Part shown: positions 12,122-15,150 of the stretch, one piece after another | Layout of the letters: each line of letters starts with the position of its first letter | Position numbering within the stretch: the first letter of the stretch is position 1 | Assembly (NCBI GenBank): GCA_029287395.1 | Contig: JARFRF010000194.1 | Location: 1 to 35,576, forward strand | Length of the DNA: 35,576 nt | DNA from: Methyloceanibacter sp. | Lineage (GTDB): Bacteria > Pseudomonadota > Alphaproteobacteria > Rhizobiales > Methyloligellaceae | Direction: 5' to 3' | The notes under the pieces: model-generated | Databases searched by the model: none | Told to the model about the DNA's origin: nothing | The model's input: the letters and a program-made list of their open reading frames with translations, nothing else | Program-made: the position numbers and the translations under genes

Positions 12122-13681
12122 ATGGCCGACAGACAAACTTATTACATCACCACCGCGATCTCGTACCCGAACGATGCGCCGCATATCGGCCATGCCTACG
12201 AGGCGGTTGCGACCGACGCTATTGCCCGGTTCCGGCGGCTGCAGGGGCGCGACGTGTTCTTCCTCACCGGGACGGACGAGCACGGCATCAAGATGCTGCA
12301 AACCGCGCGCAAGCACGGAATCGAGGTCAGTGCACTCGCCGATCGCAATACGCCGAAGTTTCGCGAGATGGTCGAGGTGCTCAATTGTTCCCACGACGAC
12401 TTCATCACTACACGCGAGGAACGCCATAAGCGTGCTGCGCAAGAACTCTGGCGGCGCATGCAGGCGGCAGGGGACATCTACTTGGATAAGTACGCCGGAT
12501 GGTACTCGGTACGCGACGAGGCGTATTACGACGAGAGCGAGTTGAGCGATGGACCCGATGGCGCCAAGCTCTCACCGCAAGGCACGCCGGTGGAATGGGT
12601 CGAGGAGGAGAGCTATTTCTTCCGCCTTTCTGCTTTTCAAGACCGGCTGCTCGCCCACTATGAGGCCAACCCTGAATTCATGGGGCCCGATACGCGTGCG
12701 AACGAGGTCAAAAGTTTCGTGCGCGGCGGCTTGCGCGATCTCTCCGTATCTCGAACTACGTTCGACTGGGGCGTGCCGGTCCCGGATGATCCCAAGCACA
12801 TTATGTATGTGTGGGTGGATGCGCTAACGAACTACATCACTGGCGTCGGCTTCCCGGACGAGTCGTGCGAGACCTACAAGAAGTACTGGCCAGCGGACGT
12901 CCACATTATCGGCAAAGACATTATCCGCTTCCACGCGATATATTGGCCCGCCTTCCTCATGTCTGCCGGCGTCGAGCTGCCGCGCCAGGTGTTCGGTCAC
13001 GGCTTCCTTTACAATCGCGGGGAGAAGATGTCGAAGTCGGTCGGCAATGTCGTCGACCCCAATGCGCTTGTACGTGAATACGGCGTCGACCAGATCCGCT
13101 ATTTCCTGCTGCGCGAAGTGCCGTTCGGTCAGGACGGCAATTACAGCCATGAAGGCATCGTTCAGCGCATCAATGCGGACCTTGCCAACGACCTCGGCAA
13201 TTTGGCGCAGCGCTCGCTATCGATGATCGCCAAGAATTGCGGTGGCGTGGTGCCCGAACCCGGTGACCTTACCGACAACGACAAAGCGATTTTGGCTCAA
13301 GCGGATGGGCTTCTGCCGCGATTGGAGGCGGAGATCGATGCCTTTGCAATCCACAAGGCGCTTGAAGCCATCTGGGCGTTGATCGCCGATGCGAACCGCT
13401 ACTTCGCGGGCGAGGAGCCTTGGGCGCATAAGAAGACCGACCCGGAGCGCATGGGGACGATCCTCTACGTGACGGCCGAGGTCGTGCGCCAAGCGGCGAT
13501 CCTGACACAGGCCGCGATGCCTGAAAGCGGCGGGAAGCTATTGGATCTGCTGAGTGTGCCGGAAGACGCGAGAGACTTCGGCAATCTTGGTGAAGCAGGG
13601 CGCCTCAAGCCCGGAACGGAGCTTCCGGCGCCGACGCCGGTCTTCCCGCGCTATGTCGAGCCGGAGGGCGAAGGGCGTTAG
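12122..13681 (+). CDS. metG: Methionyl-tRNA synthetase
   Basis: MetRS charges tRNA-Met with methionine. The 519-residue protein is class [10 protein letters not shown] (HIGH at 21-24) and EKMSKSVGN (KMSKS at 302-306) form the ATP site, and the anticodon-binding helical domain occupies the C-terminal third. The CP-domain region [19 protein letters not shown] lacks the Cys knuckle of E. coli MetRS, so it belongs to the shorter form, and there is no C-terminal tRNA-binding (OB-fold) extension. The ATG is preceded by AAGGAG at good spacing. It follows holB by 65 bases. In most relatives tatD follows directly; here a minus-strand gene pair lies between them. Confidence 0.97.
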
Positions 13682-13724: not shown

Positions 13725-13847
13725 TTAGTTGCCAACGCTGTCACAGAACGCCGAAACGAGGAATGCAAAGACCAGGGTACCGGCAAAGGCGAGTGCAAGT
13801 GTCATAGCCGGTAAACGCGGATCGACGAATTCGGTTCCAGTTTTCAT
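13725..13847 (-). CDS. 40-residue single-span membrane protein
   Basis: This small ORF has a strong start: GGAG overlapping the stop of the upstream gene (TAGGAG), then nine bases to ATG at 13847. The 40-residue product has a short polar N-terminus, a hydrophobic span from about residue 14 to 34 (MTLALAFAGTLVFAFLVSAF), and a Cys at residue 35 just past the span, with a short polar tail ending in a TAA stop. It lies 12 bases downstream of the exported glutaredoxin-like gene and is almost certainly translationally coupled to it. A role together with that thiol protein, for example through Cys35, is only a guess. I know no named family. Confidence 0.6.
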   Translation of the reverse strand: MKTGTEFVDPRLPAMTLALAFAGTLVFAFLVSAFCDSVGN

Positions 13848-13859
13848 AAGAAAAAACTC

Positions 13860-14186
13860 CTACCGGCAGTACCGCCGGATTTTGGGCGTGTCGAGTCCGC
13901 TCACTTTGTTCAGGCCAATCAGCATCTGGGGCACGGCCGTCGTGCCAAAGCGCGCTCTCATTTCAGCCTTAACGCGGGGGGTGTCCGCATCCAACAGCGT
14001 GTAGTGAATGCGGTTAAGATCGAGATAGGACAGGAGACGCCGGCACGTTCCGCACCAGGGAGCGCTATAGACGTAAACGCTCTTGCTGCAGCCATCTTTG
14101 GCCGTGCCTGCAGTCGATAAAGGCGAAGTCAGTATTGCGGCGGCAAGGGCGGCGAGAACCCTGAGCCTCCGCGTGCCTATCCACAC
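13860..14186 (-). CDS. Exported glutaredoxin-like thiol-disulfide protein
   Basis: With GTG at 14186 as start the product has 108 residues: a basic N-terminus and hydrophobic signal or anchor segment (about 6-26), then a glutaredoxin/thioredoxin fold. YSAPWCGTCRRL (CGTC at 45-48) is the redox-active CxxC, and TTAVPQM (about 82-88) holds the cis-proline of the family. A further Cys lies at residue 33, just before the fold, and another next to the C-terminus. The signal segment suggests action in the periplasm, unlike cytoplasmic glutaredoxins. The frame is open to a TTG at 14273, but the shorter start gives a proper signal peptide. No clear ribosome-binding site is seen. It is divergent from tatD and precedes the 40-residue membrane-protein gene. 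Confidence 0.75.
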   Translation of the reverse strand: MWIGTRRLRVLAALAAAILTSPLSTAGTAKDGCSKSVYVYSAPWCGTCRRLLSYLDLNRIHYTLLDADTPRVKAEMRARFGTTAVPQMLIGLNKVSGLDTPKIRRYCR

Positions 14187-14343
14187 CGCGTTGAGGTATA
14201 TTTGCCAATTAGGAGTGATGGTGGTCGTCCCATTGCTGCGTCGGCTTGTTTCGTCGGCCAAAGTGCTGCACAAAGGCCCGCCGCTCGGTTACGCGCGTCG
14301 GACCCTAGCAAACTGAACCGTAACGATATTTCATCTTTCCGTG

Positions 14344-15150
14344 ATGCTGATCGATAGCCACTGCCACCTCGATTTCCCGCAACTTCTGTCGGACTTGCCG
14401 GCGCTGCTCTCGCGTGCGGACGACGCCGGGGTAGGGCTCATGGTGACGATCTCGACCCGCGTTGCGAAGTTCGACGCGTTGAAGGAGATCGTTGAGTTGC
14501 ATGAGAACGTCTTTTGTTCCGTCGGGACCCATCCTCACAATGCAGCCGAAGAGCAGGATGTGACACTCGACGAGCTGATTGAGATCGCGCGTCATCCCAA
14601 GGTCGTTGCAATCGGTGAGGCGGGGCTCGATTACCACTACGACTATTCGCCGCGGGAGCTGCAGGCGAAGAGCTTCCGCGTTCATATTGCCGCTGCGCGA
14701 GAGACGGGGCTGCCGCTCGTCATTCATTCCCGAGAGGCCGACGAGGACATGGCAGCGATCCTCGAAGAGGAAAGCGCCAAGGGCTCGTTTCCTTTCGTCC
14801 TCCATTGCTTCACCAGCGGCGAGGACCTCGCGCGACGCGGTCTCGCTCTTGGCGGCTATATCTCGTTCTCAGGAGTTGTGACCTTCAAGAAGGCGGACAG
14901 CTTGCGCAGAATCGCCGCTTCGGCGCCGGCCGATCGGCTCCTCGTCGAGACCGACGCCCCGTACCTTGCGCCGGAGCCTTTCCGCGGGAAGACCAATGAG
15001 CCCGCCTATGTAGCAAAGACAGCCGAGCAGCTCGCCGCTGTCCGCGGTCTTGCGATCCAGGATTTCACGCAGCTTACGACCGACAATTTTTTCGGTCTTT
15101 TCAGCAAGGTGCCGCGCACCTCTCTGAAAGAACATTCAAACACCGCATGA
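14344..15150 (+). CDS. TatD-family metal-dependent hydrolase (DNase)
   Basis: TatD proteins are TIM-barrel metalloenzymes with 3'-5' nuclease activity. The 268-residue protein shows the expected metal ligands in order: DSHCHLDF (HxH near residues 6-8), GEAGLDYHY (Glu near 95), the HSRE His (near 130), the LHCFTSG His (near 156) and VETDAPYLAP (Asp near 205). ATG at 14344 was chosen over the GTG directly before it. The stop overlaps the start of the next gene in ATGA, so the two are translationally coupled. The tatD-MBL pair after metG is a common alphaproteobacterial arrangement. Confidence 0.93.
   Translation: MLIDSHCHLDFPQLLSDLPALLSRADDAGVGLMVTISTRVAKFDALKEIVELHENVFCSVGTHPHNAAEEQDVTLDELIEIARHPKVVAIGEAGLDYHYDYSPRELQAKSFRVHIAAARETGLPLVIHSREADEDMAAILEEESAKGSFPFVLHCFTSGEDLARRGLALGGYISFSGVVTFKKADSLRRIAASAPADRLLVETDAPYLAPEPFRGKTNEPAYVAKTAEQLAAVRGLAIQDFTQLTTDNFFGLFSKVPRTSLKEHSNTA

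Follow-up and report, generated by a model that had tools for sequence, protein, structure and literature searches.

A probable small membrane-protein gene behind the gene of a predicted exported glutaredoxin-like protein in one clade of Methyloceanibacter

At this locus two open reading frames sharing one strand, one for a predicted exported glutaredoxin-like protein and the other for a hydrophobic peptide of 40 residues, lie between two genes of the opposite strand. The arrangement raises the question of whether the pair forms a working unit and what the small product would contribute to it. The window, the whole stretch of 35,576 nucleotides that we analyzed, is a contig from a genome that is 81% complete. 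The initial annotation had placed the pair between metG and tatD, and both frames are found there, together with the following features.

12122 to 13681, forward strand: flanking open reading frame that we take to be metG, converging on the pair; its homologues adjoin tatD.
13725 to 13847, reverse strand: 40-codon open reading frame with an ATG start, a predicted single-span membrane protein of no named family with homologues in six other genomes.
13848 to 13862, reverse strand: stop codon of the glutaredoxin-like gene (13860-13862), followed by the 12 nt that precede the small-frame ATG; a GGAG shares a base with the stop (TAGGAG).
13860 to 14186, reverse strand: gene of the predicted exported glutaredoxin-like protein, 108 amino acids from a GTG, start uncertain; CGTC site, conserved Cys33 and Cys107.
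14246 to 14272, reverse strand: 27-nt conserved element upstream of the glutaredoxin-like gene, a candidate promoter or operator.
14341 to 15150, forward strand: flanking open reading frame that we take to be tatD, divergent from the pair; an alternative ATG start at 14344 is possible.

It had also been proposed that metG and tatD are normally adjacent and that the pair is inserted between them. Of 41 genomes, 38 have a tatD homologue at E ≤ 1e-60, and the loci that we compared cover 30 of those 38 places. The glutaredoxin gene lies beside tatD in 11 of the 30 loci and is absent from 19. Consistent with the proposed insertion, metG adjoins tatD in 18 of those 19 (the same-genus genomes among them being G002, G006 and G016); the other, L061, has no metG in view. 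Fourteen same-genus genomes could be assessed at this place, and 11 of them carry the glutaredoxin gene at tatD (G000, which is the genome of the window, G001, G003, G004, G005, G007, G008, G009, G012, G013 and G014). Three more without a tatD match at 1e-60 (G010, G011 and G015) are outside these 14 and inside the 17 same-genus genomes searched whole.

The small open reading frame follows directly behind the glutaredoxin gene in seven of these 11 genomes, and no other convincing place was found for it. It is complete in G000, G004, G005, G009, G013 and G014, so that start and ribosome site are kept in six of the seven, and the hydrophobic segment and the stop in all seven. In G003 (L007, 1810-1950) the ATG is lost while the hydrophobic segment and tail are kept, reflecting either decay or an unusual start. 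The window peptide alone matches five other same-genus genomes at E values of 1e-15 to 8e-15 and G003 at 0.012; the strong profile score of G003 arises by construction, its row having been in the profile. In G001, G007, G008 and G012 the glutaredoxin gene lies between metG and tatD with no small frame after it. Because the seven carriers form one branch of a tatD tree of 20 rows, with support of 100/100, the small gene most likely has a single origin, by birth or by acquisition, in the common ancestor of one Methyloceanibacter clade. Neither the glutaredoxin-only state nor the absence of both genes is a single branch of this tree.

From the glutaredoxin stop to the ATG of the small frame there are 11-12 nt in six genomes (12 nt in the window), and the GGAG that the initial annotation described as overlapping the stop has one base in common with it, giving TAGGAG in five of the seven genomes (G000, G004, G005, G009 and G014); G013 reads TAAAAGGA, with AGGA as the ribosome site. 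Because the ribosome site shares a base with the glutaredoxin stop in most genomes, the small protein should be made only when the glutaredoxin frame is translated. With linkage in seven of seven genomes, the coupling of the small gene to the glutaredoxin gene that had been claimed appears to hold, and it is probably translational.

The small frame keeps company with the glutaredoxin gene rather than with metG. In G000 and G005 metG comes directly after it, whereas metG is about 0.8 kb away in G004 and G014 and about 1.25 kb away in G003, the glutaredoxin gene and the small frame remaining together. Another frame stands between the small frame and metG in G004 and G003; in G013 there is no metG within 1.3 kb and a long frame takes its place, and in G009 the contig ends on the metG side. 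The frames found on this side (L003 2040-2588 in G004, L006 2262-3308 in G013 and L007 2162-3148 in G003) are three different ones, which suggests that it is a spot that takes up DNA. The G003 frame, presumably of FkbM methyltransferase type from its look, sits between a 13-codon repeat of the end of metG (2001-2039) and the metG gene (from 3200).

Upstream of the glutaredoxin gene, the 27-nt element has one match per genome in seven genomes with up to 3 mismatches allowed, always at this place, and a backward control gave none. We rejected the element as a regulon motif on account of this single place in each genome. A consensus scan found no sigma-70-like site. After the small frame, the window fold is no better than shuffles as an intrinsic terminator (z 0.02; among six folded loci z runs from -2.78 to 0.27), and none of the three sites returned by a terminator pattern scan is downstream of the small frame.

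Counted as 108 codons, the glutaredoxin frame runs from a GTG at 14186 to its end at 13860. Because no in-frame ATG precedes the CxxC site, because this GTG and two TTG codons are all possible starts and because the 20 nt before the GTG hold no clear ribosome site, the N-terminus of the window protein is uncertain. The protein matches PF00462 with an E value of 2.3e-8 (34.6 bits, cut-off 22.9), and all 11 glutaredoxin rows match at E ≤ 0.01. Judged by eye, 10 of the 11 rows have an N-terminal hydrophobic segment (the L011 row has none in frame) and 10 have small residues ahead of the first cysteine. The matches and the hydrophobic N-termini uphold the initial description of a glutaredoxin-like protein with an export-like N-terminus. 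In L011 (1417-1755, from the fragmented genome G007) no start codon precedes the CxxC in the glutaredoxin frame, the N-terminal part being apparently encoded in a different frame through an assembly error or real decay; this row was aligned without its N-terminal part, and the G014 row, L004, was excluded from both protein alignments and profiles.

Four cysteines are invariant in the 11-row alignment, C45 and C48 of the CxxC site and C33 and C107, one near each end of the mature protein. The outer two probably join in a disulfide that would close the ends of the domain, as suggested by conservation, since the structure predicted for the window protein without an alignment (mean pLDDT 51) was not good enough to rely on. 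P86 is also invariant, and we take it to be the cis-proline. The active site is CGTC in the seven genomes with the small gene and CPYC or CGYC in G001, G007, G008 and G012.

Glutathione use in this family is associated with a GGCDD loop, which is a feature of the types that use glutathione rather than of PF00462 as a whole. At this point the glutaredoxin rows read xGxD, with G97 invariant and D99 in at least 90%, and the GG(C)DD motif of the glutathione-using GrxC type is missing. Among named types the best NCBIfam score, for YruB (TIGR02196), is 37.3 bits against a cut-off of 88.55, and GRX_bact (TIGR02181) reaches 27.7 bits against 90. The nearest solved structures by sequence are glutaredoxins of cytoplasmic type, the best being 2klx (E 3.3e-10, profile positions 35-101). 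Families DsbB and DsbD_TM are over their cut-offs in all 17 same-genus genomes, and the pair is therefore an addition to the Dsb system, not a substitute for it.

Relatives of the glutaredoxin-like protein were sought with a profile that, like that of the small protein, includes rows from the genus itself, so that scores inside the genus are high by construction. At E ≤ 1e-6 the profile matches 11 of the 17 same-genus genomes and none of the 13 others of the family. At E ≤ 1e-10 it matches at least 24 of 297 genomes of the order (8 of the genus) when the best 16 candidates per genome are scored, and at least 33 of 398 genomes of the phylum (one being the window's own) with the best 11, so that misses are possible in both searches. 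We inspected 27 loci, of which 24 gave a frame and three none. Among the 24 frames, 16 have the GGCD loop typical of ordinary glutaredoxins, six have an export-like N-terminus by eye, and two have neither. One of the six (L082 in G268, of the same order) has an N-terminal cysteine, a CPAC site and a C-terminal cysteine. No small hydrophobic open reading frame starts within 120 nt downstream of any of the six. A single scan of a contig collection returned one distant Acidobacteria frame only, of 86 residues and with no export segment. Elsewhere in the phylum, L099 (G352, around 1527) fuses an N-terminal region, presumably DUF4124-like, to a glutaredoxin domain with CGVC. The window's own assembly contains a second gene for a predicted exported glutaredoxin-like protein (L018, G000:C94, 1457-1762), with no metG seen next to it; its CPYC site is of the type found in most glutaredoxin-only genomes, and its neighbors are a large frame for a membrane protein and two small frames that look exported.

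The small protein has one hydrophobic segment, at residues 17-35 with a mean Kyte-Doolittle value of 2.34, and ten residues are invariant in its six-row alignment (L19, A20, G23, L25, A28, L30, V31, F34, D36 and S37). Charges, judged by eye, point weakly to an N-in/C-out topology. The window peptide matches no family in Pfam or NCBIfam, and the six members together gave a single chance-level Pfam match (E 0.34).

Taken together, these observations lead us to propose, tentatively and at somewhat less than an even chance, that the locus is a bicistronic operon of an exported four-cysteine glutaredoxin and an evolutionarily young, clade-specific single-span membrane protein that is perhaps its adaptor. 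Both genes would be read from one transcript, and the shared base between ribosome site and stop would make the small product depend on glutaredoxin translation. The glutaredoxin would act outside the cytoplasm as a dithiol protein of thioredoxin fold (CGTC), with the outer two cysteines as a structural disulfide. Since the full GGCDD loop is missing, its partners in disulfide exchange would more likely be proteins than glutathione, and it would work alongside the usual Dsb system. The product of 40-44 residues would be a single-span protein of the inner membrane that anchors or displays the glutaredoxin at the membrane, or at one membrane substrate, working through helix packing and the conserved FxDS tail and taking no part in thiol chemistry.

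A nearly equally likely explanation is that the small protein, though real, is a new membrane peptide independent of the glutaredoxin. Its gene would have been born, or have landed, behind the glutaredoxin gene and would borrow the promoter there, and its product would target the membrane or a different complex, much like certain small E. coli membrane proteins related to stress. YohP, with 27 amino acids, is a small membrane protein with membrane-wide effects according to the available part of its source (PMC12719787). The narrow range of the small protein fits such an origin, with no convincing relative outside the genus in searches of 30 family, 297 order and 398 phylum genomes (at most the best 18 candidates being scored per genome for the phylum, so that misses are possible) and no match on plasmids. 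At E ≤ 0.001 the order and phylum searches gave only two weak matches outside the genus (G261 in the order, G374 in the phylum), both inside longer frames; we judged them to be chance and did not count them, nor did we count 18 weaker profile rows (E 0.0014-0.071, 17 of them in open frames of more than 250 amino acids), taken as chance hydrophobic matches. The four glutaredoxins at the same place that do without the small gene (G001, G007, G008 and G012) likewise favor independence, and they imply that an adaptor is dispensable for such a glutaredoxin. Set against this are the linkage in all seven genomes despite insertion of DNA on the metG side in at least three, and the one-base overlap between ribosome site and glutaredoxin stop in five of the seven.

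To judge whether the small frame is coding, we compared its last 37 codons, excluding the first 3-7, whose length varies. The dN/dS ratio is 0.15-0.62 in 20 of 21 pairs, the remaining pair lacking synonymous changes; for the glutaredoxin domain 18 of 21 pairs fall at 0.07-0.35 and the other three at zero, so the small frame is the less constrained of the two. When substitutions were permuted, amino-acid changes fell below expectation (p < 0.03) in nine of the 11 pairs tested, of 21 possible, the amino-acid count not being significant for L005/L006 (p 0.12) and L006/L007 (p 0.079). In three tree-independent pairs the true frame has fewer amino-acid changes than permutation predicts (Fisher p 0.00085); the five other frames give 0.83, 0.89, 0.25, 0.033 and 0.85 in the same pairs. 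With this codon conservation, and with homologues next to the glutaredoxin gene in six further genomes, the small gene of the initial annotation stands, and the 40-codon frame is probably a real protein-coding gene.

It is by the same comparison very improbable that the conserved stretch is instead noncoding, an RNA element or 3' untranslated part of the glutaredoxin mRNA. Such an element would account for a dS below that of the glutaredoxin domain in many pairs (0.41 against 0.78 for G000-G005) and for the one wrong frame at p 0.033, which is frame -1 and is free of stops in all seven genomes. The lower dS is however not found in all pairs (1.25 against 1.10 for G000-G003), the strongest constraint lies in one frame, and the start, ribosome site, hydrophobic segment and stop are retained as described above. 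Conservation also ends at the stop codon: in six pairs the 60 nt beyond it are 58-67% identical with gaps, within the shuffle range, whereas the core of the frame is 73-90% identical in the same pairs. Rfam gave no match at the stretch.

The initial annotation had conceived the pair as a redox unit of two parts, with Cys35 of the small protein, just past the membrane span, exchanging disulfides with the CGTC site. This idea is not supported, and we give it hardly any credence, because residue 35 is cysteine in only two of the seven genomes (G000 and G013) and phenylalanine in five (G003, G004, G005, G009 and G014), no cysteine at all being present in G009 or in the readable part of G003. The cysteines of G005, and of G004 and G014, stand at other positions. 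A two-component thiol relay calls for a conserved cysteine in both partners, and the comparison of these sequences thus excludes a relay through the small protein as a function shared by the family.

For the docking reading, an evolutionary extension would be that a membrane adaptor born de novo in one Methyloceanibacter clade made a soluble periplasmic redox protein membrane-docked, through translational coupling and contact between helices. We regard this extension as unlikely; if true, the recruitment of a new small protein into a redox module could here be dated. The pair in any case represents a probable, unnamed and clade-specific small membrane-protein gene with a likely partner, and, as the state without the small gene survives in four same-genus genomes, gain of the gene is directly testable. 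These methanol-consuming bacteria belong to a genus that is in culture, a closed genome and RNA-seq having been published for M. caenitepidi Gela4, as stated in the part of the source available (PMC6417678). The locus also adds natural glutaredoxin-like proteins that are predicted to be exported to a field in which, in the accessible portion of a 2023 E. coli study, a presumably glutaredoxin-like backup of DsbA coupled to periplasmic glutathione is suggested (PMC10344953). Among the titles and abstract openings listed on exported or periplasmic glutaredoxins and small membrane proteins there was no such pair, and a search for Methyloceanibacter with glutaredoxin returned no literature.

Compared with the PF00462 glutaredoxins of the cytoplasmic GrxC, YruB and NrdH types, the window protein shares the domain, the CxxC site and the cis-proline region, but differs in its export-like N-terminus and two further invariant cysteines; GrxC has GGCDD where the window protein has xGxD. 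When exported to the periplasm, E. coli glutaredoxin 3 reportedly makes disulfides in a glutathione-dependent manner (Eser 2009, as cited by later papers), unlike what would be expected of the window protein, which has no complete glutathione loop. There is a likeness in layout to CcmD, a small single-span protein encoded near CcmG, a periplasmic protein of thioredoxin fold. Here too a predicted small single-span protein is encoded near a gene of predicted thioredoxin fold, but the window peptide shows no sequence match, and we rejected it as a CcmD homologue in the absence of a Pfam match. For the glutaredoxin itself a counterpart is GSU2812 of Geobacter sulfurreducens, for which the part of the source at hand mentions no small partner and our comparison extends to domain make-up, leaving aside cysteine pattern and neighbors: it combines a signal peptide with a glutaredoxin domain, the same build as predicted for the window protein (PMC7726332).
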